Source: Clostridiales bacterium (GTDB lineage: Bacteria > Bacillota > Limnochordia > Darwinibacteriales > B1SED10-159). From it: 37,695 bases of DNA. Shown here one piece after another: positions 5,478-33,903 of the stretch. The DNA is taken from NCBI GenBank assembly GCA_003551965.1, contig PUOC01000245.1, forward strand, positions 1 through 37,695. Reading direction: 5' to 3'. Made by a program: the position numbers and the translations under genes. Numbering within the stretch: position 1 is the stretch's first letter; each line of letters begins with the position of its first letter. A model generated the notes under the pieces. It was not told the DNA's origin. It worked only from the letters and a program-made list of their open reading frames with translations, and searched no databases.

Positions 5478-6629
5478 ATGAACGTTGTAGTGGCACCGGA
5501 TTCCTTTAAGGGTTCGCTGTCTAGTGTAGAGGCGGCGCGCGCGGCCGTAGAGGGTTTGCTGCAGGGGGATCCTGGGCTGGTCTGTCATCAACTTCCCCTG
5601 GCCGATGGGGGTGAAGGGACAGTGGATGCGGTTTTGCATGCTCGCCCTGGAGAAGAGGTGACAGTGGATGTGCGCGATCCCTTGGGCCGATGGGTCACTG
5701 CCCGCTATGCTTGGTATCCTTGGGAAAAGCTGGCAGTGATGGAAATGGCCCAGGCTTCGGGCCTCCCACTCCTAGACCCCGCCGAGTACAACCCTTCCCA
5801 GGCGTCCAGTTATGGAACAGGCCAATTGTTGGCACATGCACTCTCGCGAGGGGCCTGTCATATTCTACTGGGCCTTGGCGGCAGCGCCACGGTTGACGGA
5901 GGCGTCGGCTGTCTGCAGGCTCTAGGAGCCACGTTATACAGCCGGGAAGGCCCCGTTGACGATGGAGCCGCGCTGCTCAACGATATTGCGGAGGTCGATC
6001 TGGCCGGTCTCCATCCTCAGCTGGCGTCGGCCCAGCTTGTGTTGGCGTCGGATGTGACCAATCCTCTCTTAGGGGCGCGGGGGGCGGCGGCGGTCTTTGG
6101 CCCCCAGAAGGGAGTCAGGCTGGAAGAGGTAGACAGATTCGATCAAGCCTTGGCCCGGTGGGCTTCGGTGCTGGATGCAGCCAGCGGGACTGCATGTGCC
6201 CATGGGGCCGGAACAGGAGCCGCCGGCGGATTGGGGTATGCGTTGCATGCGGCGGCCAACGCCGATATTCGCAGTGGGTTTGAGGTTGTCGCTGATATCG
6301 TGGGACTGGATCAAGCCTTGGAAAAAGCCGATGTGCTTGTGACCGGGGAAGGCCGCATGGACAGCCAATCGTTTTATGGGAAAGTCCCTGTGGCCGCTGC
6401 CGAGCGGGCGGCGGCGTATGGCGTTCCTACGGTTGCCATGGCAGCCCAGATCTGCGGCAGCTGGGATTTGTTTGCCGAAAAAGGGATTGCGGTAACGATA
6501 CCCATCATTGATCAGCTCATGGAACTGGAAGATGCCCTCGACTACGGCTATGAACTGGTGCGAAGGGCCGGTCGGCGCTTGGCCCTGACCTGGAAATTGG
6601 GACGGGAATTGGGAGGGATCGGGAGATGA
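5478..6629 (+). CDS. glxK: Glycerate 2-kinase (GlxK/GarK family)
   Basis: Phosphorylates D-glycerate with ATP, giving 2-phosphoglycerate for lower glycolysis. The 383-residue length is standard. Hallmarks: VVVAPDSFKGSLSS at the N-terminus, LPLADGGEGTVDA, LGLGGSATVDGGVGCLQALG, LASDVTNPLLG, GAGTGAAGGLGYAL and VLVTGEGRMDSQSFYGKVP. All belong to the class I glycerate kinase fold, not the MOFRL/GckA type. Start ATG 5478 has GAAGTGAGG 8 nt upstream. Its stop overlaps the next start in ATGA, so translation is coupled to the downstream phosphorylase. That pairing suggests the glycerate comes from phosphorolysis of glucosylglycerate. Confidence 0.95.
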   Translation: MNVVVAPDSFKGSLSSVEAARAAVEGLLQGDPGLVCHQLPLADGGEGTVDAVLHARPGEEVTVDVRDPLGRWVTARYAWYPWEKLAVMEMAQASGLPLLDPAEYNPSQASSYGTGQLLAHALSRGACHILLGLGGSATVDGGVGCLQALGATLYSREGPVDDGAALLNDIAEVDLAGLHPQLASAQLVLASDVTNPLLGARGAAAVFGPQKGVRLEEVDRFDQALARWASVLDAASGTACAHGAGTGAAGGLGYALHAAANADIRSGFEVVADIVGLDQALEKADVLVTGEGRMDSQSFYGKVPVAAAERAAAYGVPTVAMAAQICGSWDLFAEKGIAVTIPIIDQLMELEDALDYGYELVRRAGRRLALTWKLGRELGGIGR

Positions 6630-8335
6630 CAGAGAAAACAAAACTGTACGAGGATCTGACATTTGTCTATGGCACCGAACAAGGCGAGCATGTATACGAT
6701 TGCGTCATGGAAAAACTCCAGAACATGCCTCGGTTGGATAGGGAAGCGGACTGGGTCAGTGAAAAGGACGTCATGCTTATAACCTATGGGGACCAAGTGC
6801 AGGACTCGGATTGCAAACCTCTGCAGTCACTGCATCAATTTGCTGAGCAGTTTCTCAAGCCCAGTCTGTCTGCTATCCATATTCTCCCATTCTATCCCTA
6901 TACTTCGGATGATGGGTTCAGTGTCGTGGATTATACGCAGGTGGACCCCGCGCTGGGGGAGTGGGAGGATGTGGAAAGATTATCCCAGTCCTTTGATCTC
7001 ATGTTTGATGCTGTGATTAACCATATCTCGAGGCACAGTCCATGGTTTCAAGGCTATTTGAACGGTGACCCGAAGTACGAGAATTTCTTCATCGAAGCAG
7101 ACCCCGATGCCGATTATTCTACGGTGACTCGGCCCCGGGCTCTGCCGCTTCTGACGGAGGTGGAAACGAGCCGCGGGCGGCGGCATGTCTGGACCACATT
7201 CAGCGACGATCAGATTGACTTGAATTACGCCAATCCGGAAGTGTTCCTGGCCGTTCTCGACGTACTCCTCTTCTATGTTTCCAAAGGAGCCAAATACATC
7301 CGCCTGGACGCGATCGGATATCTGTGGAAAGAATTGGGAACTTCCTGCATCCACTTGGAACAGACGCATCGCATTGTGCAGGCTTACCGGCAGGTGCTCG
7401 ACGAAGCGGCACCAGGCACAGTAATAATCACCGAGACCAATGTTCCGCACAAGGACAATGTCCGCTACTTCGGTGACGGTGCCGATGAAGCCCATATGGT
7501 ATATCAGTTTCCCCTGCCTCCATTGACACTATATTCCTTTTTGACCGGTGATGCCAGGCCATTAACCAGTTGGGCGAAGCAGCTAGAAGCTCCAAAACCG
7601 GGGACCAGCTTCTTCAATTTCCTGGCTTCCCACGACGGTATCGGCCTGATGCCCGCCAGAGGTATCCTTGGGGACAGCGAAATCGACTACATGGTCTCGG
7701 AAACCCATGACCGGGGCGGATATGTTGGGTATAAGGACAACGGTGATGGCACCAAGAGTCCCTATGAGTTGAATATCAATTATTTCAGTGCCCTTAAGGC
7801 ACCGGACGACAGCCAAAGTGCCGCTGTCAAGAAATTTCTGGGCGCCCAGACGATTCTGCTGTCGATGGCCGGTGTGCCTGGCATCTACTTCCACAGTTTA
7901 GTGGGTTCGGAAAACTATCGCGCCGGGGCCGAGGAATCGGGCATACCGCGACGCATCAACCGCCAAAAGCTTTCCCGCCAGCGGTTGGAACAGGAGCTTA
8001 GACAAACCGGGACTGTGCGGGAGGAAGTGTTTTCCGAATTTACCCTCCGTATTCAAATACGTCGGCGTCAACCGGCCTTTCATCCCGATGCCGAGCAGAG
8101 GATCATCGAGAATGACCCGCGGCTTTTTGTGATACTGCGGGGAACCGGCCAGCAGAGTATCCTGGCAGTGGTAAATAGCAGTGCCGATACGGTGGAAACA
8201 GAGCTAGGTCTGCCTGAAGGCCTAGAGGCGGACTGCTTCCAAGACTTAATCGGCGGTGCGCGATTCAGTGCGGCCGATGGTATTCTGAAGACGACTCTTG
8301 GAGCCCACGACTGCTTGTGGCTGCTTCCCCAATAA
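6626..8335 (+). CDS. GH13_18 sucrose-phosphorylase-like enzyme, probably glucosylglycerate phosphorylase
   Basis: A retaining alpha-glucoside phosphorylase of 569 residues. Catalytic residues are visible: nucleophile D228 in YIRLDAIGYLWKE, acid/base E270 in VIITETNVPHKDN, transition-state D337 in ASHDGIGLMP. The N-terminal half has IHILPFYPYTSDDGFSVVDY and DAVINHISRHSPWF, typical of the sucrose phosphorylase branch. It is longer than classical sucrose phosphorylases (~500 aa) and close in size to the YcjM-type glucosylglycerate phosphorylases. The start overlaps the glycerate kinase stop (ATGA). Genomic context favours glucosylglycerate + Pi -> glucose-1-phosphate + glycerate. Sucrose, sucrose-6'-phosphate or glucosylglycerol cannot be excluded from motifs alone. 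Confidence 0.85.
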   Translation: MTEKTKLYEDLTFVYGTEQGEHVYDCVMEKLQNMPRLDREADWVSEKDVMLITYGDQVQDSDCKPLQSLHQFAEQFLKPSLSAIHILPFYPYTSDDGFSVVDYTQVDPALGEWEDVERLSQSFDLMFDAVINHISRHSPWFQGYLNGDPKYENFFIEADPDADYSTVTRPRALPLLTEVETSRGRRHVWTTFSDDQIDLNYANPEVFLAVLDVLLFYVSKGAKYIRLDAIGYLWKELGTSCIHLEQTHRIVQAYRQVLDEAAPGTVIITETNVPHKDNVRYFGDGADEAHMVYQFPLPPLTLYSFLTGDARPLTSWAKQLEAPKPGTSFFNFLASHDGIGLMPARGILGDSEIDYMVSETHDRGGYVGYKDNGDGTKSPYELNINYFSALKAPDDSQSAAVKKFLGAQTILLSMAGVPGIYFHSLVGSENYRAGAEESGIPRRINRQKLSRQRLEQELRQTGTVREEVFSEFTLRIQIRRRQPAFHPDAEQRIIENDPRLFVILRGTGQQSILAVVNSSADTVETELGLPEGLEADCFQDLIGGARFSAADGILKTTLGAHDCLWLLPQ

Positions 8336-8558: not shown

Positions 8559-8629
8559 GAAACCAGCCGGGTGGTTCCCGCCGGATGCGGCTGACCGATG
8601 AGCCGGCGAGGCGAAGGAGGTTGAATGCC

Positions 8630-9985
8630 GTGAAATCATGGATGGCGGCCTTGCTGTGCGCGATGCTGTTAATGGTATCTCTGCCGGTATATGGCGAAAC
8701 ATCCAGCCAAATAACTCCGGCGGACGTGCTAGAGGATCTGGACTTTCTGGAGACCACCATTCGCCAAGTTCACCCCGACCCCTTCCAATACGCCGGAGTA
8801 GACCGTTTTGTACGCCATTTCGTGGACGCGCGTCGTTCTGTGGAAGAGGCCATGAGCCGCGAAGAACTCTATTATCTGACCCAGGGGCTAGCCGGATTGG
8901 TGGAGGATCAACAGACCCGACTGTACTTGGATAGGGAAGATCGGGAACTGGCAGTACGGTTTTGGTGGGCAGAGGAAGGATTGGTCATGGCCGGGGCAGC
9001 TGCAAAAACGGATGTGAAGCCTGGCTGGCTTGTGGCATCCATCGGAGGTCAGTCGGTTGATCAGATTCTTGAACAGGCGAAGACGATGCTCATTGCCGAG
9101 AATGACTATGGACTGCAAACTACGATGGCCAAACACCTCCATTCCGGTGCTTTCCTTAACCGGCTGGGCGTGCTCGAGGGCACCAAGGTCACACTGGAAT
9201 TGCAGGACGAGCAGGAACAGACAGTTACTGTAGACATTGAACTGCGCGTTCCTCGAACCGTTGCGGGCTTGGTTCCGCAGCGTCCCCAATGGGGATGGTG
9301 GATCGCAGACGAGAGCAATACAGCAGTATTCTACATCGATTCCTTTATCATGGATGACGATCTGCAATGGGAGCTGCAGCGGTTTTTCCGAGCTGTATCC
9401 GAGGAAGCATTGGAAAAGGTGGTTTTCGATCTGCGCTTTAATACGGGAGGTAATTTCGATGTCGTCAAGGAGCTGCTCCGCTATCTGCCGGAACGGCGAA
9501 TCCAGGGCTACGCAGCAGAAATCCGCTATTCAAAGCAGGCAGCTGCCCAAAAGGACTACGATGAAACGGCCGGGGTCGAGCGGGTCAGCCATCTGACACG
9601 TTTGTTTGGCGGCTATCTCATGGAAATTCCTCCGTCGCCGGAGGATATTCCGCCCTTCGAGGGCTCCGTGTATGTCATGACGTCTTCCAAAACAGTAGGG
9701 GCAGCCCATTGGTTTGCCGTGATCGTGCAAGATAACCAGATCGGCTATATAGCAGGCGAACCCACCGGAAATAGGCCGACGGGATACAGCGGTCCACTGG
9801 AGTTTGAACTGCCGAACTCTCAGCTCAGGTTGGCCGTATCGCATAAACGCTGGATTCGGCCGGATCCGGACCGAGATCCCAGCGACAGCCTATATCCGGA
9901 TATTTCGATCCCCATTACTGCGGATGATGTAAGAGCGGATGAAGACGTGCATCTGCAGCGATTATTGGAGACCATCCGTCAGTGA
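8630..9985 (+). CDS. Exported S41 (C-terminal-processing) peptidase-like protein, probably inactive
   Basis: Start is GTG 8630, with AAGGAGG at 8614-8620 and 9-nt spacing. It gives a signal peptide (KSWMAALLCAMLLMVSLPVY then GE) without a lipobox. Residues ~25-110 form a helical N-domain, ~110-215 a PDZ-like region (AKTDVKPGWLVASIGGQSVD), and ~225-440 the S41 core. The core has KVVFDLRFNTGGNFDVVKEL, then VYVMTSSKTVGAAHWFAVIV and GYIAGEPTGNRPTG. In active S41 peptidases the second motif reads …RTFSAAE…; here the nucleophile position is G357 (KTVGAAH). The fold is clear but the catalytic Ser appears lost, so it may bind peptides or envelope material rather than cut it. The stop overlaps the next ATG. 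Confidence 0.82.
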   Translation: MKSWMAALLCAMLLMVSLPVYGETSSQITPADVLEDLDFLETTIRQVHPDPFQYAGVDRFVRHFVDARRSVEEAMSREELYYLTQGLAGLVEDQQTRLYLDREDRELAVRFWWAEEGLVMAGAAAKTDVKPGWLVASIGGQSVDQILEQAKTMLIAENDYGLQTTMAKHLHSGAFLNRLGVLEGTKVTLELQDEQEQTVTVDIELRVPRTVAGLVPQRPQWGWWIADESNTAVFYIDSFIMDDDLQWELQRFFRAVSEEALEKVVFDLRFNTGGNFDVVKELLRYLPERRIQGYAAEIRYSKQAAAQKDYDETAGVERVSHLTRLFGGYLMEIPPSPEDIPPFEGSVYVMTSSKTVGAAHWFAVIVQDNQIGYIAGEPTGNRPTGYSGPLEFELPNSQLRLAVSHKRWIRPDPDRDPSDSLYPDISIPITADDVRADEDVHLQRLLETIRQ

Positions 9986-10695: not shown

Positions 10696-10749
10696 TTGAC
10701 TGCGGGGTCAGGAGTTCTCGGCAAGACATGGGAGAGGAGTGGTAGTAAA

Positions 10750-11805
10750 ATGATTCGAGTCGGCATTTTGGGTGCTTCGGGGTATATGGGTGGCGAGGCC
10801 TTGCGGGTGCTGCTGCGCCATCCCGAGGCCAAGGTTGAATGGGCCACCAGCCGGACGGAGCAGAAAGCGGAAATGATCCACCGCAATCTTTACGGGGCGG
10901 GCATTGAGTTCATCAAACAAGAAAAGACGACTCCCGTTGACGTGGTATTTGCAGCGCTTCCAGGCGGCCACATTATGAAGGAAGCGCCTGCGCTGCTGGA
11001 AAAAGGAACCCGTGTGATTGATCTAGGATCCGATTTTCGTCTGAAGAATGTCGAGAAGTGGGGCGAAGTCTATGGCAAGGAGCATGCTTCGCCATCGCTG
11101 GTGGCCGAAGCGGTCTACGGTATTCCGGAGCTGCATCGCCAAACGATGCGGGACACCCGTGTCGTAGCGAACCCCGGCTGTTTTTCTTCGGCAGCCATTC
11201 TCGGTCTTGCGCCGCTTTTGAAGAATCGCATGGTAGACCATCACAAACTGGTCGTAGACGGCCTGTCAGGTACGGCCGGCGCCGGCGCCGAGACCGATAC
11301 ATCCGTGCACCATCCCGAAATCGGCAACAATATCGTCTCATACAACGTAGTCGGTCATCGGCACACCCACGAAATGGAGCAGGAGCTAGGTTATGTGGCC
11401 GGCGAGAGCGTCAGCATTCACTTCACTAGCCATTATGTGCCTATTACCCGCGGCATTTTGGCCGTCTGCCATGGGTTTTTGAATAGCCCCGCGTCCCGGG
11501 AAGAATTATTGGACGTCTTCCGCGACTTTTACCGCGATGAATATTTTGTTCGGATCTACGATCTTCCCAAGGACCCGGATGCGGCTTGGCAGCACCGGCC
11601 ATACCCCTGGGTGAACGCCGTTTCGGGCACGAACTTCTGTCATATTGGTTTGGATGTGGATGAAGAGCGCGGGCGTGTGGTTGTGTTCAGTGTGCTTGAC
11701 AGTGTGGGTAAGGGCGGTGCCCTGGCCGGCATCCAGAATATGAATCTGCTGTTTGGTTTGGAAGAAAAAAGCGGTCTTGATTTCTTCGGGCTTCATCCCT
11801 ATTGA
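10750..11805 (+). CDS. argC: N-acetyl-gamma-glutamyl-phosphate reductase family (ArgC-like)
   Basis: NADPH-dependent reduction of an acyl phosphate to a semialdehyde; in arginine synthesis the substrate is N-acetylglutamyl phosphate. The 351 residues carry the nucleotide-binding GILGASGYMGGEALRVLLRH, an AALPGGH loop, the catalytic Cys in VVANPGCFSSAAILGLAPLL, and the active-site His stretch GHRHTHEMEQEL. The end VDSVGKGGALAGIQNMNLLF is typical. Start ATG 10750 has AGGAG at 10735-10739. It is followed within 20 nt by a glutamate-5-kinase-like kinase and then an SDR, not by argJ, argB or argD. The family is certain; that the substrate is the arginine intermediate is not. Confidence 0.9.
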   Translation: MIRVGILGASGYMGGEALRVLLRHPEAKVEWATSRTEQKAEMIHRNLYGAGIEFIKQEKTTPVDVVFAALPGGHIMKEAPALLEKGTRVIDLGSDFRLKNVEKWGEVYGKEHASPSLVAEAVYGIPELHRQTMRDTRVVANPGCFSSAAILGLAPLLKNRMVDHHKLVVDGLSGTAGAGAETDTSVHHPEIGNNIVSYNVVGHRHTHEMEQELGYVAGESVSIHFTSHYVPITRGILAVCHGFLNSPASREELLDVFRDFYRDEYFVRIYDLPKDPDAAWQHRPYPWVNAVSGTNFCHIGLDVDEERGRVVVFSVLDSVGKGGALAGIQNMNLLFGLEEKSGLDFFGLHPY

Positions 11806-11825
11806 CGCCGTACAGGAAGGTGAAT

Positions 11826-12659
11826 GTGTTGCAGTTTGATCACGAAATTGTCGGCAAAATCGGTTCGATGGCTCTTGTCCGCAGCGAGGACCACGATCTG
11901 GATTACAATGTCTTCAGCCGCCTAGGGGCCGATTTAACTCCCGATTTTATCTGGGTCAGTTCCGGAGCCGTTGAAATTGGGCGGCTGGATTACCGCAAAC
12001 ACAATGACGGCAGAGAATTGACCGGATACGAACCCGAGGAGGCAAAAGCGGATTACGCATCCCAGGGTCAGAGTATACTCATGGAAAACTATCGCAGGTT
12101 CATCGACCCCAACTATTCCGTGCGCCAGCTGCTGGTTGAGCACATGCACTTCAACGACCCGGAAAAGCGCGACCATATTCGCCGTTTTTTAATGCGGGCC
12201 CGGGCCCAAAAGGCCATTCCGATTGTCAATTACAACGATACAGTGAGTATTGAAGAAATTCGCAAGATGGAACTGATGAATTTGCGACAGAATACACACA
12301 AGGTCGTGGAATGTGTTGACAACGATGAGACTGCTGCCCAGATTGCTGTCCTGGTGCGAGCACGGATTCTGCTTCTGCTGACCTCTGCGCCTGGAATTCT
12401 CCGCGACACCGACGATCATGCATCGCTGATCCCGGAAGTCTCAGGCCGTAATGAAGATGAAGTCTTAGAACACCTGCAATACGTGGAACAATACTGCAGC
12501 GGGAGCAGCCGCAGCGGTGCCAACGGCATGAAGGCAAAACTGCAGTTTCTCCGGGAACCGATTCTGCAGGGCACCACCGTTATCATCGGCAGCTCCCAAC
12601 GCCGTGTATCCCATCTGCTGGATGGGCGAGCGGAGCGAACCATTATACGCGTACGTTAG
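11826..12659 (+). CDS. Amino acid kinase, glutamate 5-kinase-like (no PUA domain)
   Basis: A 277-residue amino-acid-kinase fold. Motifs: VGKIGS near the start, WVSSGAVEIGR, SQGQSILMENYRRF, RQLLVEHMHF, IPIVNYNDTVS, ECVDNDETAAQIAVLVRA, GANGMKAKLQFL, and a final LLDGRAERTIIRV. These follow ProB (glutamate 5-kinase) much more than ArgB, but the sequence is divergent and the C-terminal PUA domain is missing. It should phosphorylate a side-chain carboxylate and feed the ArgC-family reductase encoded just upstream. Start: AGGAAGG (11814-11820) precedes GTG 11826 by 5 nt and TTG 11829 by 8 nt; the TTG at 11802 overlapping the argC stop has no site. The true substrate is unknown. Confidence 0.75.
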   Translation: MLQFDHEIVGKIGSMALVRSEDHDLDYNVFSRLGADLTPDFIWVSSGAVEIGRLDYRKHNDGRELTGYEPEEAKADYASQGQSILMENYRRFIDPNYSVRQLLVEHMHFNDPEKRDHIRRFLMRARAQKAIPIVNYNDTVSIEEIRKMELMNLRQNTHKVVECVDNDETAAQIAVLVRARILLLLTSAPGILRDTDDHASLIPEVSGRNEDEVLEHLQYVEQYCSGSSRSGANGMKAKLQFLREPILQGTTVIIGSSQRRVSHLLDGRAERTIIRVR

Positions 12660-12669
12660 GAGGACGAAT

Positions 12670-13413
12670 ATGGAGAAGAAGATCATTTTGGTTACCGGTG
12701 GGTCTCGCGGCATCGGTGAGGAGTTTGTGCGGGGTTTCGCCGCCCAAGGGCACCGAGTAGTGCTGAATTACTCGCGCTCTCAACAGCAGGCAGAGGAGGT
12801 ATCGACTTCTGTTGAGAATTCGGGAGGAGCAGTCTTCTGCCAACAGGCTGATGTCTCCGCTCGCGACCAGGTTAGAGCCATGTTCGATGCCGTAGAGGAA
12901 CACTGGGGAATGGTCGACATTCTGATCAACAATGCGGGCATCAACCTGGATGGCCCTTTCCTGCCCATGGAAGGCGAGCAGTGGCAGCGGGTGGTGGACG
13001 TGGTTTTGACCGGAACCTTTTTGTGCTCCCAGGAGTACGCGCGCCGCTACCAAGGAACGGCTGGCCATATCATCAACATGGGTGCTGCGACCGCGCTGCA
13101 CGGGCGCAAAAACGGGACCAATTACTGCAGCGCCAAGGCTGGTGTTATGACGTTAACGAAATGCCTGGCCAGGGAGTTGGCGCCCGCCATTGCCGTGAAC
13201 TGCGTGGTGCCGGGCTTTATGGAAACAGAAGAGGTTATGGAGCGTTTTAACTTATATGATCCCGATCGGCGCCGGGACATGGAAAATCGTGTTCCGCAGG
13301 GCCGCCTGGGCACTACCGCGGATATCTTTCGCATGACCAGCTTCCTGGTCAATGAGGCTACGTATATCACAGGGCAGAATCATTTTGTTAATGGAGGAGA
13401 ATACATGGGCTGA
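12670..13413 (+). CDS. Short-chain dehydrogenase/reductase (FabG-like) with Ser-to-Ala at the active site
   Basis: A classical SDR of 247 residues: VTGGSRGIGEEFVRGFAAQG, ADVSARDQ, LINNAGINLDGPF, then NYCSAKAGVMTLTKCLAREL with catalytic Tyr and Lys, and the end GQNHFVNGGEYMG. An ungapped comparison with E. coli FabG (IITIGSVVG…NY) gives IINMGAATA…NY, so the catalytic Ser is Ala. Start ATG 12670 has TTAGGAGG 6 nt upstream; the gap from the kinase gene is 10 nt. It is the last gene of the ArgC/kinase operon and could reduce the aldehyde made by the first two enzymes. The FabG fatty-acid role is less likely without fab neighbours. Confidence 0.88.
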   Translation: MEKKIILVTGGSRGIGEEFVRGFAAQGHRVVLNYSRSQQQAEEVSTSVENSGGAVFCQQADVSARDQVRAMFDAVEEHWGMVDILINNAGINLDGPFLPMEGEQWQRVVDVVLTGTFLCSQEYARRYQGTAGHIINMGAATALHGRKNGTNYCSAKAGVMTLTKCLARELAPAIAVNCVVPGFMETEEVMERFNLYDPDRRRDMENRVPQGRLGTTADIFRMTSFLVNEATYITGQNHFVNGGEYMG

Positions 13414-14304: not shown

Positions 14305-14442
14305 GCAGGCTTTTCCTGCTTCTTCCTTCTTGCCCCTTGGAACAGAAGTGGGTCCGCTGTCTGCGGGCCATATTTCAGGAAGAAACAGTGACAAAGCCAA
14401 AAGCGTGCCCCGATGGCATGCCAGACGAAGGAGATGAACACC

Positions 14443-15630
14443 GTGTACGCTGTGGGTGATTACAAGGAATTCATCGATTGTTCCTGCGGCCAGAAACACA
14501 CTTTGCCGGTTTTTCAGGCATTGCTTGGCAGCGGGGCCATGGAGACCATTCCCGCTTTTATTCGGGCCAAAGGTTTGCAGAAGCCTTTGCTGCTGGCAGA
14601 TCCAAATACCTGGGAGGCTCTGGGTAAGGCTGTACAGCAGAGCATTTCTGACGCTGGCATCGAGTCGTCTGCCTTCGTCTATTCCGACGAAGAACCGGCA
14701 GCTGACGAGCATCGGTTAGGCGAGTTGCTGATTGCGTGCGCCCAGAAACCTGATTGTATGGTTAGTGCGGGCTCGGGCACACTGACGGACATAACCCGCT
14801 ATGTATGCTATCTCTTGAACATACCCCATGTCGCTGCGGCTTCTGCCCCTTCCATGGACGGATACGCTTCCTCTGTAGCTCCCCTGATACGGGGTGGAGC
14901 GAAGATAACGTTCGGCGCCAAAGCTCCCGACCTGATTGTGGGTGACCCCACGGTTCTAGCTGCAGCACCCGAGCCAATGGTGGCGGCAGGGTTCGGTGAT
15001 TTGATGGGGAAGCTCACGGCCAAAGCGGACTGGCTTCTGGGACACTATCTTCACGGAGAAGCATACTGTCCCAATATCCAGGCCCTCGTGGACCAAGCAG
15101 TGCATTCGATGGTCAATCTCTTAGAGGGCGGCATTGACGATCGCGGGGAGTATGTCACAAAGATCCTTGAAGGACTGGTTCATTCCGGAGCCGCGATTAC
15201 CTTGTTTGGTTTTTCGAGACCGGCATCGGGGGCTGAACACCATCTGTCTCACTATTGGGAAATGGCAGCTCTCCGGGAAGGGAGGGTGCCTGCTCTGCAT
15301 GGTTTGAAGGTTGGATATGGAACCTGGCTGATATTGCAGGTCTACGAGGGCGTCCGCCGCCGCAGTAAGCGAGGCCTGCTTCCGAAAGACGAAAGCAAGG
15401 CTCTGGAACGGGCCATGGACCACCTGCCTTCGGCCGCCTCTTACGCCGTCATGGCAAGAAAAGCCCAAGTACCGTTGGAGCCGGAACTCCTCCACCTGAG
15501 CGAAACGTCTGTGCGTACGGCAGTGAAGGAAGCCATGGCCATTCGTGACCGCTACACGATACTGCCGTTAGCTGCTAGCCATGGCTGGCTGCCGGAGATT
15601 GCGGCCGAAATCGCAGTGCGCTGGGAGTGA
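14443..15630 (+). CDS. egsA: sn-glycerol-1-phosphate dehydrogenase (AraM/EgsA family)
   Basis: Reduces dihydroxyacetone phosphate to sn-glycerol-1-phosphate with NAD(P)H. In archaea this makes the lipid backbone; in Bacillus, AraM supplies G1P for heptaprenylglyceryl lipids. The 395 residues show the dinucleotide site VSAGSGTLTDITRYV, ASAPSMDGYASSVAPL, and metal ligands D in GFGDLMGKLTAKADW, H in SGAEHHLSHYWE and H in ALHGLKVGYGT. AAGGAG at 14428-14433 abuts ATG 14434 and lies 9 nt from GTG 14443, so the GTG is preferred; ATG 14413 is possible but lacks a site. No PcrB-like prenyltransferase gene is adjacent. Confidence 0.88.
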   Translation: MYAVGDYKEFIDCSCGQKHTLPVFQALLGSGAMETIPAFIRAKGLQKPLLLADPNTWEALGKAVQQSISDAGIESSAFVYSDEEPAADEHRLGELLIACAQKPDCMVSAGSGTLTDITRYVCYLLNIPHVAAASAPSMDGYASSVAPLIRGGAKITFGAKAPDLIVGDPTVLAAAPEPMVAAGFGDLMGKLTAKADWLLGHYLHGEAYCPNIQALVDQAVHSMVNLLEGGIDDRGEYVTKILEGLVHSGAAITLFGFSRPASGAEHHLSHYWEMAALREGRVPALHGLKVGYGTWLILQVYEGVRRRSKRGLLPKDESKALERAMDHLPSAASYAVMARKAQVPLEPELLHLSETSVRTAVKEAMAIRDRYTILPLAASHGWLPEIAAEIAVRWE

Positions 15631-17582: not shown

Positions 17583-18788
17583 ATGGCGGGAAGCAACCGT
17601 ATTGCCCAGGAGAAAGTGAAGCAGGCCGTGGACATTCTGCGGGAAAAGGACCTGGATTGCTGGATTACATTCACTAGAGAAAGCGACTTGACGGGCGAGC
17701 CGTGTTTGGATTTAATCTTGGACTCCAATGTTACTTGGCTGTCGGCCTTTATCGTGTTTCGGACCGGCCGAACGGCAGCCGTGGTGGGCCAGGGTGATGT
17801 GCAGGCTGTGGAGTCCATTGGTTCTTTCGACGAAGTGATCGGTTACACGCAGGACTTCAACGCTCCGTTTTTGAACCTCCTTCACGAGATGGACCCCGAG
17901 TCTATTGCAGTGAATTTCTCTAAGGATCACGAAGCTGCCGACGGTCTAAGCCACGGCATGTTTTTGATGCTAGAAGACATCTTGAGGGACACCCCTTTCC
18001 GAGAGCGCATTTGTTCTTCAGAGCCCCTGGTGTTGCCGCTCCGGGGACGAAAAACAGATGCTGAAACGGCTGCCATCCGACGAGCCGTTGCGGCCACGGA
18101 GGCCATTCTTGACGAGGTTCCCGGCCATATCCGTCCGGGGATGACTGAGATGCAGATCTACCATTGGGTTCAAGAACAAATGGCGGCCAAAGGAGCTGAA
18201 CCCGCATGGGACAATGCCTACAACCCCGGCGTATATTGTGGTCCCGACAGTCCATTAGGCCATTGCTTTCCTTCGGAAACGGTGACCTTAAAACCGGGCC
18301 AAACACTGGTTTTAGACTTCGGTCTGCAGGTTGACGGTTACTGTGCCGATATTCAGCGGACGTGGTATGCACTGAAGACCGAGGAGGCCGAGCCGCCGGT
18401 GCCCGTAAAGCAGACATTCCGTGATATGCTCGATATTTTGGAGGCGGGAGAGCGGGTGCTTATGCCCGGTAATACCGGTTGCGATGTGGACGGCGCCATG
18501 CGGCCTTTGATAACGGCAAAAGGTTACCCCGAATGGGGATTCGCCATGGGCCATGAGCTGGGACGTTCGGCCCACGATGGTGCCGTTTGTCTGGGGCCGG
18601 CGTGGCCGCGTTACGGGGAAAGTGTGCATATTCCGTTGGAGGAAGGCAATGTCTTTGCGGTCGAATGCGGCATTCGGCACAAGGAGTACGGTTACTTCCA
18701 TTTTGAGCAGGATGTGCGGATCACCCCGTCAGGCATGGAATACCTGTCAGCGAAGCAGAAGCAGATCTACTCCATTCCCACCAGCTAG
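17583..18788 (+). CDS. M24 family metallopeptidase (Xaa-Pro aminopeptidase/dipeptidase-like)
   Basis: A 401-residue pita-bread peptidase: an N-terminal creatinase-like domain (~1-160) then the M24 catalytic domain. Metal ligands are visible: the two Asp in LVLDFGLQVDGYCADIQRTW, His in AMGHELGRSAHDG, Glu in VFAVECGIRHKEYG, and the last Glu in YFHFEQDVRITPSG. It is expected to release residues next to proline from small peptides in the cytoplasm. Start ATG 17583 has GGAGG at 17571-17575, spacing 7. It is 27 nt upstream of an M29-like peptidase gene, a plausible peptide-degradation operon, and lies next to the divergent peptide-binding protein. Confidence 0.9.
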   Translation: MAGSNRIAQEKVKQAVDILREKDLDCWITFTRESDLTGEPCLDLILDSNVTWLSAFIVFRTGRTAAVVGQGDVQAVESIGSFDEVIGYTQDFNAPFLNLLHEMDPESIAVNFSKDHEAADGLSHGMFLMLEDILRDTPFRERICSSEPLVLPLRGRKTDAETAAIRRAVAATEAILDEVPGHIRPGMTEMQIYHWVQEQMAAKGAEPAWDNAYNPGVYCGPDSPLGHCFPSETVTLKPGQTLVLDFGLQVDGYCADIQRTWYALKTEEAEPPVPVKQTFRDMLDILEAGERVLMPGNTGCDVDGAMRPLITAKGYPEWGFAMGHELGRSAHDGAVCLGPAWPRYGESVHIPLEEGNVFAVECGIRHKEYGYFHFEQDVRITPSGMEYLSAKQKQIYSIPTS

Positions 18789-29094: not shown

Positions 29095-31110
29095 TCAAGA
29101 TACGGGAAGTTCCAATTGCTCCCGAATTCGCTGCAGGAGATCGGGGACATGGCCCGGTGTCACTCCACTCACCACGTCATCACCCACGATCACCATGGGT
29201 CCGCTGGCGCACTGCTGGCAGCAGAAGGCGCCGCGCAGTTTGACGTTTTCAGTTAAATCTGCAGCCTCCACTTGGTCTGTTAGGGTTCTGAGCAATTTCA
29301 AGGAGCCCTTCAGATAACACGAAGTTCCCACGCACACCTGTACTTCAACGGCGGCCGGTTTCTTACTGGAAGCGATATCCATGGATTCACCTTGAATGCG
29401 GCGGCGAGAACCATAGTGGGTATGCAGCAGGGCATGGGACTTGGCACTGCCCGGTTCGCCCAGCCAGCGCTGGTAAACATCCCTCACCATGGGATTTTGT
29501 TTCGACTGATGCAGCTGCAGGGTTTTGTCCTCTCGATAGAGCCCATTGCTGCGGCGTTCTTGGGTCTGCTGCCTGTTGTTGGCTATGGGCTGCCCTGCTC
29601 CGCCAATACATCCCCCTGGACAGGCCATGACCTCTAGAACATCGATGGATTCCTCACCAGACTTGATCCGTTCCAGGAGTTCCGTGGCCTGTGCCAAGCC
29701 GTTGACAACCGCTAGACGAAGTGTCTGCTCTCCAATTTTCAGATCAACCCGTCGTGTACCGTCGTTTCCCCGGACCGCTTCGAAGGCCTTTGGCTGCGGC
29801 TGCCGTCCCGTGATTTCTTCATGGGCATGGCGCAGCACGGCTTCGCTGACGCCGCCGGTAACGCCGAATATCACGCCTGCACCTGTGGCAAAACCAAAGG
29901 GCATGTCCATAGACGTAGGCTCTAGGTGTTCGAAGGCCAGTCCTTCCTCGCGGATCATCCGGGCCAGTTCCTGTGTGGTCAATACCAGGTCCACGTCTGC
30001 CCGGCTGCTCTGCTGAAACTCATCCCGTTGGGCTTCGAACTTCTTGGCAGTACAGGGCATGACGCTGATCACATACATATTATCGGCCGAAATACCCAAG
30101 TCCTGGCTGTAACGATGCTTGGCCAGCGATCCGAACATCTGCTGCGGCGAGCGGCATGTGGAAAGATTGTCCAGAAACTCCGGATAGTACTGTTCCACAA
30201 ACTTCACCCAGGCGGGGCAGCAGGAAGTGAAGTGGGGGAGCGGCTCCTGGTTTTGCAACCGGCCCAGCAGTTCATGGGTTTCTTCCAAGACAGTGAGGTC
30301 AGCCGTGAAGCTCGTGTCGAAGACGTAGTCGACCCCCATGATCCTGAGGGCCGCAGCAATCTGTCCCGTGACAGATTGGCCGGAGGCGAGATTGAACTCT
30401 TCACCGATGCTGACTCGGACAGCGGGGGCGATTTGTACAACGACCGTGGTATCGGGATCATGAATGGCACGCCAGGCACGTTCTGTTTGGGATTTGACGG
30501 TCAAGGCCCCGGTGGGGCAGATGGCAGCGCACTGACCGCAGTTGACACATTCCACATCGCCCAAATCCTTGCCAAAGGCGGGGCTGACCGTGATTTGGGA
30601 GCCGCGATGGGCAAAATCCAGTACACCGATTCCCTGTACTTCTTCGCACATGCGAACACAGTCGCCGCAGAGAATGCATTTGTTGGGATCACGCACCAAG
30701 GATGGGCTGGATGCATCGATAGGCGACTTGCGGTCACGCTGGCCGAAGCGAATGTGCTCAATACCGAATCGCTGGGCCAAATCCTGCAGTTTGCAGCTGC
30801 CACTGCGGCTGCAGGTGGTGCATTCGCGTTCGTGGTTGGCCAGCAGCAGTTCCAATGAAACTTTCCGAACGTGGCGAAGCTCCGCTGAATTGGTGCGAAT
30901 CACCAGTCCGTCTTCGGGAGGTGTATGGCAGGCGGCCACCGTCCCCCAGCCTTCGACTTCAACCATACACATGCGGCAAGCCCCATAAACGCTGAGTTCG
31001 GAATGGTAGCAGAACGTCGGCAGGTCGATTCCCGCGTTGCGGATGACTTCCAAAACGTTGTTCTCGTCGGAAAACGTGGTTCTTTGACCATTTATCGTCA
31101 TAATACCCAT
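29095..31110 (-). CDS. hydA: [FeFe] hydrogenase catalytic subunit with C-terminal thioredoxin-like [2Fe-2S] domain
   Basis: Catalyses H+ reduction to H2 at the H-cluster. In the 671 residues: an N-terminal [2Fe-2S] domain (C34, C45, C48, C61), a Cys3His [4Fe-4S] site (H93, C97, C100, C106), two ferredoxin clusters (C145-C155 and C188-C198), and then the H-cluster motifs. These are L1 TSCCPAW (295-301), L2 MPCTAKKFE (351-359) and L3 ACPGGCIGGAGQP (496-508). A thioredoxin-like [2Fe-2S] domain follows (C593, C598, C631, C634). With hydB and hydC upstream it fits the trimeric electron-bifurcating or NAD-linked enzyme. The start ATG is 2 nt after the hydB stop, with GAGGAGG inside the end of hydB. 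Confidence 0.96.
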   Translation of the reverse strand: MGIMTINGQRTTFSDENNVLEVIRNAGIDLPTFCYHSELSVYGACRMCMVEVEGWGTVAACHTPPEDGLVIRTNSAELRHVRKVSLELLLANHERECTTCSRSGSCKLQDLAQRFGIEHIRFGQRDRKSPIDASSPSLVRDPNKCILCGDCVRMCEEVQGIGVLDFAHRGSQITVSPAFGKDLGDVECVNCGQCAAICPTGALTVKSQTERAWRAIHDPDTTVVVQIAPAVRVSIGEEFNLASGQSVTGQIAAALRIMGVDYVFDTSFTADLTVLEETHELLGRLQNQEPLPHFTSCCPAWVKFVEQYYPEFLDNLSTCRSPQQMFGSLAKHRYSQDLGISADNMYVISVMPCTAKKFEAQRDEFQQSSRADVDLVLTTQELARMIREEGLAFEHLEPTSMDMPFGFATGAGVIFGVTGGVSEAVLRHAHEEITGRQPQPKAFEAVRGNDGTRRVDLKIGEQTLRLAVVNGLAQATELLERIKSGEESIDVLEVMACPGGCIGGAGQPIANNRQQTQERRSNGLYREDKTLQLHQSKQNPMVRDVYQRWLGEPGSAKSHALLHTHYGSRRRIQGESMDIASSKKPAAVEVQVCVGTSCYLKGSLKLLRTLTDQVEAADLTENVKLRGAFCCQQCASGPMVIVGDDVVSGVTPGHVPDLLQRIREQLELPVS

Positions 31111-31112
31111 GC

Positions 31113-32993
31113 TTAGGCCACCTCCTCTACGGCATCGAAGTTACAGACGTCTTTGCAGGCGCCGCATTTGATGCATTTGTCTTGATCTATGAGATAGGGT
31201 TCCCGGATTGTTCCGGAAATGGCATCGACCGGGCATGCTTTGGCACAGCGGCTGCAGCCTTTACACAACGGTTCATTGATGACGAAGCGCCGCAGTCCCT
31301 TGCAGACCCCCGACGGGCAGCGCCGATCTACCACATGGGAAAGATATTCGTCGCGGAAGTATTGCAGTGTACTCAAGACAGGATTTGGCGCGGTCTTCCC
31401 AAGACCGCACAGCGAACCAATACGGACGGCACTGCCGATCTCCTCGAGATGATCCAAGTCCTCGGTGGTTCCGCGTCCTTCCACGATTTTCTGCAGGATT
31501 TCCAGCATGCGCCGGGTGCCTTCACGGCAGGGAACGCATTTGCCGCAGGATTCCAATTGGGTAAAGTTCATGAAAAACCGAGCCACTTCGACAATGCATG
31601 TCGCCTCATCCATGACGACCAAGCCCCCGGAGCCGATCATCGCCCCGGCTGACTGCAGGGAGTCGAAGTCCAATGGCAGGTCCAAATGTTCTGCCGTGAG
31701 ACATCCGCCTGAGGGCCCGCCGATCTGCACAGCTTTGAAATCGGCGTTGCTGCGCACTCCCCCGCCAATGGCATATACCAGCTCTCGCAGCGTCGTTCCC
31801 ATGGGAATTTCCACGAGCCCGGTGTTTTCCACGTCCCCAGACAGGGCGAAGGTTTTCGTTCCGGGGCTCGCCGATGAACCCAATGAACGGAACCACGCAC
31901 TGCCGTGCTGAAGGATGTCGGGGATATTTGCCAAGGTTTCAACGTTATTAATGACGGTCGGCATGTTAAACAGCCCGGAAACAGCGGGAAACGGCGGCTT
32001 TGGTTTGGGCATGCCCCGGCGTCCTTCAATGGAAGCAATCAGAGCGCTTTCTTCGCCGCAGACGAACGCACCTGCCCCTTCTTTGATGCGCAGGGAAAAG
32101 GAAAATCCAGAGCCAAGTATATCAGTGCCTAGGAGGCCTAAGGATTCTGCCTCTTCAATGGCGTGGCGCAGTCTGTCGACAGCCAGAGGGTATTCGGCCC
32201 GCACATAAATGTATCCCACGGTGGCGCCGATTCCATATCCCGCAATCAGCATTCCTTCAAGCAGACGGTGGGGATCGCCTTCCATGAGGCTTCGATCCAT
32301 GAATGCGCCCGGGTCGCCCTCGTCGGCATTGCAGATCAGGTATTTCTGTTCCGCGTCGGTGCCTGCTGCTATGCTCCATTTCTTCCCAGCGGGAAAACCG
32401 CCTCCGCCGCGGCCGCGCAAATTAGAGTCAAGAACTTCCTGCACAACACGATCCGGCGTCCGCTCCAGTGCATTGGCCCATCCCTGATAGCCGCCCTTAG
32501 CCAGGTATTCCCGGATGTCATCGGGTGCAATAGAACCGCAATTGCGAAGTGTAATCCGGCTTTGCAGCTTATAGAAGGGAATAGAGGCTTCCTTCTCGTA
32601 ACTTCTCTTTTCGGTTGGGTCGAGATAGAGAAGCCGGGAAACGGGCGTGCCCGACAGGAGGCTGTCCACAATGGCCTCTGCATCATCGGTGGACACTTCT
32701 GTGTAGAGGGTCCCGGATGGCTCAAGCCGCACCAAAGGCCCCTTTTCGCAAAACCCCTGACAGCCGGTGCCGAGCGGTGTAATACCTGAGCACGCATCTT
32801 CAGAAAAGGTCTGATCGACGGTGTTGAGAAGATCCCGCCGTTCGAGCTCTGCCCGAATCGATTCATAGACCTGCTGTGCTCCGCTGGCCGAACAGCCACC
32901 GCCGGCACATACCGCAATCCGGGACTGGTGGCGGTTACGATGTAGTTCACAGCGTTTGCTCAACTGCTGCAAGTCCTCTAAGGTATTAAGCAT
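31113..32993 (-). CDS. hydB: Hydrogenase NADH-binding flavoprotein subunit (NuoF-like HydB)
   Basis: Carries FMN and NAD(H) and links them to HydA. The 626 residues match HydB of Thermotoga-type enzymes in length and layout: an N-terminal thioredoxin-like [2Fe-2S] domain (CAGGGCSASG … GCQGFCEKGPL), the FMN/NAD region RGRGGGGFPAGKKWS and CNADEGDPGAFMDRSLMEGD, an SLBB region, the NuoF cluster SCGKCVPCREGTRRM, and a C-terminal 2x[4Fe-4S] ferredoxin (CKGCSRCAKACPV, CIKCGACKDVCNF). Start ATG 32993 overlaps the hydC stop by 8 nt and has GGGGGG upstream. A longer frame from 33035 lacks a site. Confidence 0.95.
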   Translation of the reverse strand: MLNTLEDLQQLSKRCELHRNRHQSRIAVCAGGGCSASGAQQVYESIRAELERRDLLNTVDQTFSEDACSGITPLGTGCQGFCEKGPLVRLEPSGTLYTEVSTDDAEAIVDSLLSGTPVSRLLYLDPTEKRSYEKEASIPFYKLQSRITLRNCGSIAPDDIREYLAKGGYQGWANALERTPDRVVQEVLDSNLRGRGGGGFPAGKKWSIAAGTDAEQKYLICNADEGDPGAFMDRSLMEGDPHRLLEGMLIAGYGIGATVGYIYVRAEYPLAVDRLRHAIEEAESLGLLGTDILGSGFSFSLRIKEGAGAFVCGEESALIASIEGRRGMPKPKPPFPAVSGLFNMPTVINNVETLANIPDILQHGSAWFRSLGSSASPGTKTFALSGDVENTGLVEIPMGTTLRELVYAIGGGVRSNADFKAVQIGGPSGGCLTAEHLDLPLDFDSLQSAGAMIGSGGLVVMDEATCIVEVARFFMNFTQLESCGKCVPCREGTRRMLEILQKIVEGRGTTEDLDHLEEIGSAVRIGSLCGLGKTAPNPVLSTLQYFRDEYLSHVVDRRCPSGVCKGLRRFVINEPLCKGCSRCAKACPVDAISGTIREPYLIDQDKCIKCGACKDVCNFDAVEEVA

Positions 32994-33495
32994 CTGCTGT
33001 ATCCCCCCTGGATTCGAGCGTATCAAGGATAACATGAATGGCGTCAGGTGTCACTTTTCCGTACACTTCGCCGTTGATCGTCACCACCGGTGCGGCCGCA
33101 CAAGCGCCGACACAAGACACTGTCTCAACGGTGAACATACCGTCTTCCGTCGTGGCTTTTCCATCCACTAGCCGAACCTTCTTGCAGATGGCCTCATAGA
33201 CAGGCATGGAACCGCGGACATGGCAGGCGGTACCGTCGCACACTTGGATAACATACTTCCCCTTTGGTTCCAAGGAAAACTGGGCATAAAAGGTCGCCAC
33301 TCCGTACACGGTGGCGGGAGACAGATCGAGGGCGGTCGCCACATGGGTCAGCAGGTCTTCAGGAAGATAGCGATATGCGTTTTGGATTTCTTGCAGCATG
33401 GGGATTAAAGTAGAAGAATGCTTTCCATAGCGCTGCACAAGGTTGTCCAGGCGCTGAAGAATATCCAACTGTCGATTCGCGGTCGTCTGAAGCAT
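32986..33495 (-). CDS. hydC: Hydrogenase NuoE-like [2Fe-2S] subunit
   Basis: A 169-residue NuoE-type protein: an N-terminal helical bundle (LIPMLQEIQNAYRYLPEDLL, LSPATVYGVATFYAQFSLEP) then a thioredoxin-like [2Fe-2S] domain with CDGTACHVRGS and SCVGACAAAPVVTING, giving the four Cys. First gene of the hydCBA operon. Start: AAAGG (near 33505) touches ATG 33504 but lies 9 nt from ATG 33495, which is preferred. The open frame continues upstream to 33780 but that part has no ribosome site and covers the promoter, so it is not coding. Confidence 0.93.
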   Translation of the reverse strand: MLQTTANRQLDILQRLDNLVQRYGKHSSTLIPMLQEIQNAYRYLPEDLLTHVATALDLSPATVYGVATFYAQFSLEPKGKYVIQVCDGTACHVRGSMPVYEAICKKVRLVDGKATTEDGMFTVETVSCVGACAAAPVVTINGEVYGKVTPDAIHVILDTLESRGDTADA

Positions 33496-33563
33496 GGACG
33501 TCATCCTTTCCAATGCAAGGGTGTATCCTGCGTTCGTGACATATTTAACGATAGCAGGCGGAG

Positions 33564-33585
33564 AAAAAGCGGCCGCGCGCAGCCA
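33564..33585 (-). terminator. Terminator-like hairpin inside the hyd operon leader
   Basis: On the minus strand GTGGCTG and CGGCCGC pair over 7 bp (two G-T pairs) with a CGCG loop, followed by TTTTT. It lies between the operon promoter and hydC, roughly 95 nt downstream of the expected transcription start, so it may be an attenuator. Confidence 0.4.
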
Positions 33586-33687
33586 CCGCACAGATAGCTT
33601 CCAGTTCAACAGCGGGTATGCAGTGCAGGAACCAATCTCAAGCACGCCTGCACTCTGTTCACTAATTAATTCACATACCCTATTGCC

Positions 33688-33716
33688 ATTATCGCCGATT
33701 TGGTCTTTTTTTTCAA
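33688..33716 (-). promoter_or_regulatory. SigA-type promoter of the hydCBA operon
   Basis: Read on the minus strand: TTGAAA (plus 33711-33716), 17-nt spacer, GATAAT (plus 33688-33693). An A-rich tract follows the -35. The transcript would have a leader of about 185 nt before hydC. I see no convincing Rex palindrome; TGTGAATTAATTAGTGAAC just downstream has Rex-like half-sites but as direct repeats. Confidence 0.75.
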
Positions 33717-33903
33717 CAGGAAATACGGAAAAATTCGTTAGAGATATGACAAAGCCTGTCGGCAGAGTTTCGTTTCTCACTCTGAGTGGTATCTATGGAG
33801 GCTATCTTTGGGTGAGGTCTGCGGGCCTTGCCGTGGCGGCACGAACGCAACATTTCCGCCAATTGGGTGTCTTTACTGCGGCACAGAACGGGCAGACAAA
33901 AAA

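Follow-up and report, generated by a model that had tools for sequence, protein, structure and literature searches.

Bacteria are considered to make proline in an almost uniform way. The canonical enzymes are the glutamate 5-kinase (G5K) ProB, the acyl-phosphate reductase ProA and the pyrroline-5-carboxylate (P5C) reductase ProC. In a reconstruction of amino-acid pathways across 2856 gut genomes, ProA and ProB form the single signature for proline, and the new non-orthologous replacements concern serine, arginine, lysine and threonine only (PMC9026213). ProA is not a homolog of ArgC, the acyl-phosphate reductase of arginine synthesis; in Escherichia coli, a mutant form of ProA (ProA*) can do the work of ArgC (PMC6941894). 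Bacillus subtilis bypasses ProA through RocD and still uses a ProC-type reductase (PMC9245794).

Here we describe a three-gene operon that likely encodes a non-orthologous pathway from glutamate to proline. The chemistry proposed for it is that of the canonical enzymes, and the kinase shares the fold and active site of ProB; in contrast, the reductase is a homolog of ArgC, and the last enzyme is a short-chain dehydrogenase/reductase (SDR) and not a ProC. As with ProA*, an acyl-phosphate reductase of one pathway appears to have been recruited into the other. However, ProA* is a product of laboratory selection in which a mutant ProA serves for ArgC, whereas the operon holds a natural, fully diverged ArgC paralog that apparently serves for ProA. 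The RocD bypass likewise yields proline without ProA, but it runs via ornithine and needs a ProC-type reductase, of which none was found in the genomes carrying the operon. Our literature search, which is incomplete, found no paper on an ArgC-type ProA or on an SDR-type P5C reductase.

Gene layout and conservation of the operon

The window, that is the whole stretch of 37,695 nucleotides analysed, carries the following features:

10732..10749, + strand: Shine-Dalgarno-like GAGAGGAG, 5' of the reductase ATG (sequence reading)
10750..11805, + strand: ArgC-like acyl-phosphate reductase, proposed gamma-glutamyl-phosphate reductase (ProA replacement); TIGR01850, 358.6 bits
11813..11820, + strand: Shine-Dalgarno-like AGGAAGG in the gap between reductase stop and kinase start (sequence reading)
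about 11826..12659, + strand: ProB-like glutamate 5-kinase without PUA domain; AA_kinase 2.7e-15, proB 1e-23
12657..12669, + strand: AGGAGG 5' of the SDR ATG, overlapped by the kinase stop TAG (sequence reading)
12670..13413, + strand: FabG-like SDR, proposed P5C reductase (ProC replacement); adh_short_C2 3.8e-53

A first-pass annotation of the letters alone had proposed this gene set, and it is real: all three frames lie on the + strand and are assigned by Pfam and NCBIfam to an ArgC-like protein, a ProB-like kinase and a classical SDR. The genes are tightly packed, with intergenic gaps of about 10–20 nucleotides. The reductase and the SDR each start with ATG (10750 and 12670); the start of the kinase is uncertain, with GTG 11820, GTG 11826 and TTG 11829 as candidates and a long frame open from TTG 11802, and is probably GTG 11826, so that it lies at most about 20 nucleotides from the reductase stop. 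A scan for promoters and terminators gave no signal exceeding chance, and the window contains no Rfam match.

Only two other genomes of the family are available, G001 (the 'Clostridiales bacterium' MAG CSSed10_292, L027 in the species-genome scan described below) and G002; completeness is 98% for the genome of the window (G000), 95% for G001 and 79% for G002. The reductase-kinase-SDR order, whose conservation the first-pass annotation had proposed to check, is kept in both, with protein identities of 77–79% for the reductase, 83–84% for the kinase and 76–77% for the SDR, and the arrangement is therefore not due to chance. Among 121 relatives searched, the kinase is confined to the three genomes of the family, and the reductase ortholog occurs in three of 73 genomes of the class, all three again family members.

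Arginine genes elsewhere and missing proline genes

The genome of the window possesses an argC-argJ-argB-argD cluster on contig 14, apart from the operon, and its six AA_kinase proteins are three aspartokinases, ArgB, PyrH and the operon kinase. Because this separate and complete cluster is present, the operon does not serve plain arginine synthesis, in agreement with the earlier view of the locus. The accompanying question, whether the genome has separate arg and pro genes, is thus answered in two ways, with argCJBD present and proBA absent. Searches for ProA and ProC gave no match at all in G000 and G001; in G002 nothing reached the cut-off, the weak ProC hit there (25.7 bits) lying far under it. 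A further ProB was found in neither of the two family genomes tested, G000 and G001, the latter (G121) being without a match over the ProB cut-off. We also considered, and rejected, a route through ornithine cyclodeaminase: G000 and G002 have no member of that family, and the single member in G001 has alanine dehydrogenase or SbnB as its best match and stays far under every cut-off.

Within the order, the presence of ArgC combined with the absence of ProA and ProC is found only in the operon family. A ProA match is present in all other relatives whose ArgC match has E<=1e-60, and it is full-length in each of them but G021, where it is partial. Six ProA loci from relatives in the order were fetched; canonical proB adjoins proA in every one, and for this reason canonical proBA probably is ancestral and was lost in the operon family. 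Most genomes of another group of the order (f4) have none of ArgC, ProA and ProC and are probably auxotrophs. Proline auxotrophy, of which the order seems to hold cases, could be another explanation for the absence of proABC.

A divergent stand-alone kinase family

The kinase belongs to the Pfam family AA_kinase, and its best NCBIfam match is proB, although at 84 bits it misses the curated cut-off of 186. At about 280 amino acids it has no space for a PUA domain, so that its description in the first-pass annotation as glutamate 5-kinase-like and PUA-free is borne out. The E. coli G5K residues K10, S50-G51-A52, N134, N136, D137, D148-N149-D150 and K217 are kept, and the differences are a change of E135 to Y and of D170 to S. 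Unlike canonical ProB, the kinase family also has an insert of about 17 amino acids ahead of the DND motif and forms a separate, sister clade in the tree. The AlphaFold model (pLDDT 88) predicts an amino-acid-kinase fold nearest to G5K, and its top 28 PDB matches are all glutamate 5-kinases or P5CS kinase domains.

Scanning 84,980 species genomes, we found 112 relatives of the kinase and kept 80 with 54–84% identity. They are nearly all from Clostridia, with the addition of Breznakiella homolactica, and are mostly stand-alone genes. Canonical ProB above the cut-off is absent from 49 of 50 kinase-carrying genomes, while ProA is present in 41 of the 50 and ProC in 20 of the 27 tested. By comparison, canonical ProB is present in six of six relatives that have ProA and no such kinase (Fisher p = 2e-7, uncorrected for relatedness), and at one locus (L052) the kinase gene lies directly 3' of proA. 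We infer that this widespread kinase family substitutes for ProB in ProA-bearing genomes, where its members would phosphorylate L-glutamate. If so, recognition of this family would put right the calling of many Clostridia with ProA and no recognised ProB as proline auxotrophs.

In some hosts, for example Breznakiella, the kinase may have a role other than in proline synthesis, because four kinase-bearing genomes have no match to ProA, ProC or ArgC and Breznakiella possesses a full canonical proBAC in addition to the kinase. No ArgC-like partner was found in the kinase-bearing genomes without ProA, the single hit being a 39% ArgC, and a plasmid search returned nothing beyond distant ProB. In Breznakiella homolactica (L100:8001-9524), the kinase gene is followed by one for a B3/4-domain protein (PF03483). 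At about 48 Clostridia loci (L042 and about 47 others), the kinase gene is located just 3' of a gene whose sequence suggests a shikimate kinase, with chorismate-mutase-like and McsA/ClpC-like genes nearby.

An ArgC paralog with altered near-invariant residues

The reductase passes the NCBIfam argC model (TIGR01850) with 358.6 bits against a cut-off of 233.6. Its best families are ArgC and Asd, and it has no match to ProA, which is of the ALDH type; the first-pass annotation had likewise read it as resembling ArgC and not ProA. It shares the fold of ArgC and keeps the catalytic Cys144 and His203/205 (HRH motif). However, it is neither encoded with the arginine genes nor the sole ArgC of its genome, and it is only 31–45% identical to canonical ArgC. 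In a comparison with 28 ArgCs of its class, near-invariant positions are changed from YPT to FSS (after the Cys), SGxSGAG to SGTAGAG, PHLVP to SHYVP, PQTK to PWVN and DNL...Q to DSV...A, and there is an insert of about 10 amino acids. The ArgC-like clade sits on a long stem branch of 2.06 changes per site. These alterations and the long stem fit a change of substrate that was followed by strong conservation, and unacylated glutamyl phosphate is the new substrate that the context suggests.

An SDR without the catalytic Ser and Asn

The third protein is a classical SDR with 36% identity to E. coli FabG and falls under all FabG equivalog cut-offs. It has the fold, NAD(P)-binding motif and Tyr-x3-Lys of FabG-type SDRs, but in an alignment comprising E. 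coli FabG plus 28 further sequences it departs from the Asn-Ser-Tyr-Lys tetrad of carbonyl-reducing SDRs. Tyr152 and Lys156 are kept, whereas FabG Ser138 is replaced by Ala139 and Asn110 by Val112 in all three family members. Loss of these two residues argues against an ordinary ketoreductase. The catalytic Ser is likewise missing from dihydropteridine reductase, an SDR with a C=N system as the target of its reduction. In keto-reducing SDRs the Ser polarises the carbonyl, and in the imine-reducing SDRs considered in the same paper a Ser or Thr flanks the proton donor (PMC7540600); because of the latter, loss of the Ser is no signature of imine reduction, and the residue pattern of the operon SDR is only suggestive of it.

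Ala at the Ser position recurs in one other aligned SDR only (L146). This SDR of the same class (L177:6892-7749) adjoins a NitT/TauT-like ABC transporter, and with such a neighbour the locus was rejected as an equivalent operon.

A proposed route to proline and its alternatives

We hypothesize that the divergent stand-alone glutamate 5-kinase would convert glutamate and ATP to gamma-glutamyl phosphate, which the ArgC paralog, with its changed pocket, would reduce with NADPH to glutamate-5-semialdehyde in place of the unrelated ProA. The semialdehyde would cyclise spontaneously to P5C, and the SDR without catalytic Ser and Asn would replace ProC by reducing the C=N bond of P5C with NAD(P)H to give proline. 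P5C and proline are the expected products because ProA and ProC are missing, the kinase appears to stand in for ProB and the SDR is devoid of the Ser and Asn. All substrates of the pathway are ones that we infer, imine reduction by the SDR in particular, and the SDR step is the weakest part of the reading. On balance we favour a complete proline operon in which an ArgC paralog takes the place of ProA and an SDR that of ProC, next to the divergent stand-alone kinase; if this holds, we know of no earlier P5C reductase of the SDR type.

The first-pass annotation had noted that the pairing of ArgC-like and ProB-like proteins is unusual and had deduced that kinase and acyl-phosphate reductase together would make an aldehyde, and both points are supported. 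Its analogy with aspartokinase and the enzymes that follow it applies to steps one and two. In step three it saw a possible conversion of the aldehyde to an alcohol; reduction of an imine is more likely there, and an alcohol end product has become less likely with ProA and ProC absent in three genomes and Ser and Asn lost from the SDR.

An alcohol such as 5-hydroxynorvaline or a related compound, made by the SDR from the open-chain aldehyde as a small secondary product after the same first two steps, is nonetheless an alternative, given that C=O is the usual target of SDRs. The operon lies beside sugar and peptide-uptake genes rather than amino-acid genes, and the host could take its proline from peptides, since proline auxotrophy seems to occur in the order; for an auxotroph, peptides would be the alternative source (compare the M24-family Xaa-Pro aminopeptidase-like protein encoded at window 17583-18788). 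However, glutamate semialdehyde cyclises rapidly to P5C, the SDR has neither the Ser nor the Asn of the tetrad for carbonyl reduction, and the family keeps arginine synthesis and has the operon exactly where proABC is absent, so that we regard the alcohol as unlikely. Instead of glutamate, and as in LysW-type or natural-product pathways, the enzymes might use a glutamate homolog or an amino acid that is N-acylated or bound to a carrier, for example 2-aminoadipate or N-acyl-glutamate. Although the ArgC family usually handles acylated substrates and the HHPE motif of the reductase is LysY-like in an alignment to 5eio, the kinase is of the ProB type and not of the ArgB/LysZ type, keeps the residues of the glutamate site and has its relatives in genomes with ProA and without ProB; such a substrate strikes us as quite improbable.

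The assignment of the SDR rests on its operon position, its residues and the missing ProC, and it is conceivable that the kinase and the ArgC-like reductase make P5C, that another, unrecognised reductase completes proline and that the SDR has a different job. We think this very unlikely, as each of the three genomes has the SDR within that tight cluster and is without ProC. It is hardly credible that the operon duplicates arginine synthesis in degenerate form: the reductase does pass the argC cut-off, but a complete argCJBD exists elsewhere, the kinase is not an ArgB, and the reductase, from which near-invariant ArgC residues are gone, is nonetheless 77–79% conserved between genera. If the proposed proline operon is confirmed, a textbook pathway has been re-invented in nature, and the natural use of an ArgC for ProA would be the mirror image of the laboratory model of enzyme evolution, ProA* for ArgC, and therefore a real endpoint for the question which that model addresses.

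Genomic neighbourhood

Next to the operon lie sugar and peptide-uptake genes and not amino-acid genes. Directly 5' of it, an S41 peptidase-like protein (window 8585-9985) is encoded, which is kept at that place in G001 and G002; the genes 3' of the operon vary among the three genomes. Further upstream (window 5478-8335), a glycerate kinase gene is followed by that of a sucrose-phosphorylase-like GH13 enzyme scoring under the sucrose phosphorylase cut-off, a pair that would fit glucosylglycerate breakdown, and a glycerate kinase is also found near the operon in G002. Shortly 3' of the operon, window 14413-15630 encodes a glycerol-1-phosphate-dehydrogenase-like protein (157.6 bits, cut-off 413), which is unusual in bacteria; its gene is missing from the corresponding place in G001 and G002. 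Finally, genes for NuoEFG-like and hydrogenase subunits in window 29095-33780 read as a putative electron-bifurcating [FeFe] hydrogenase gene set.
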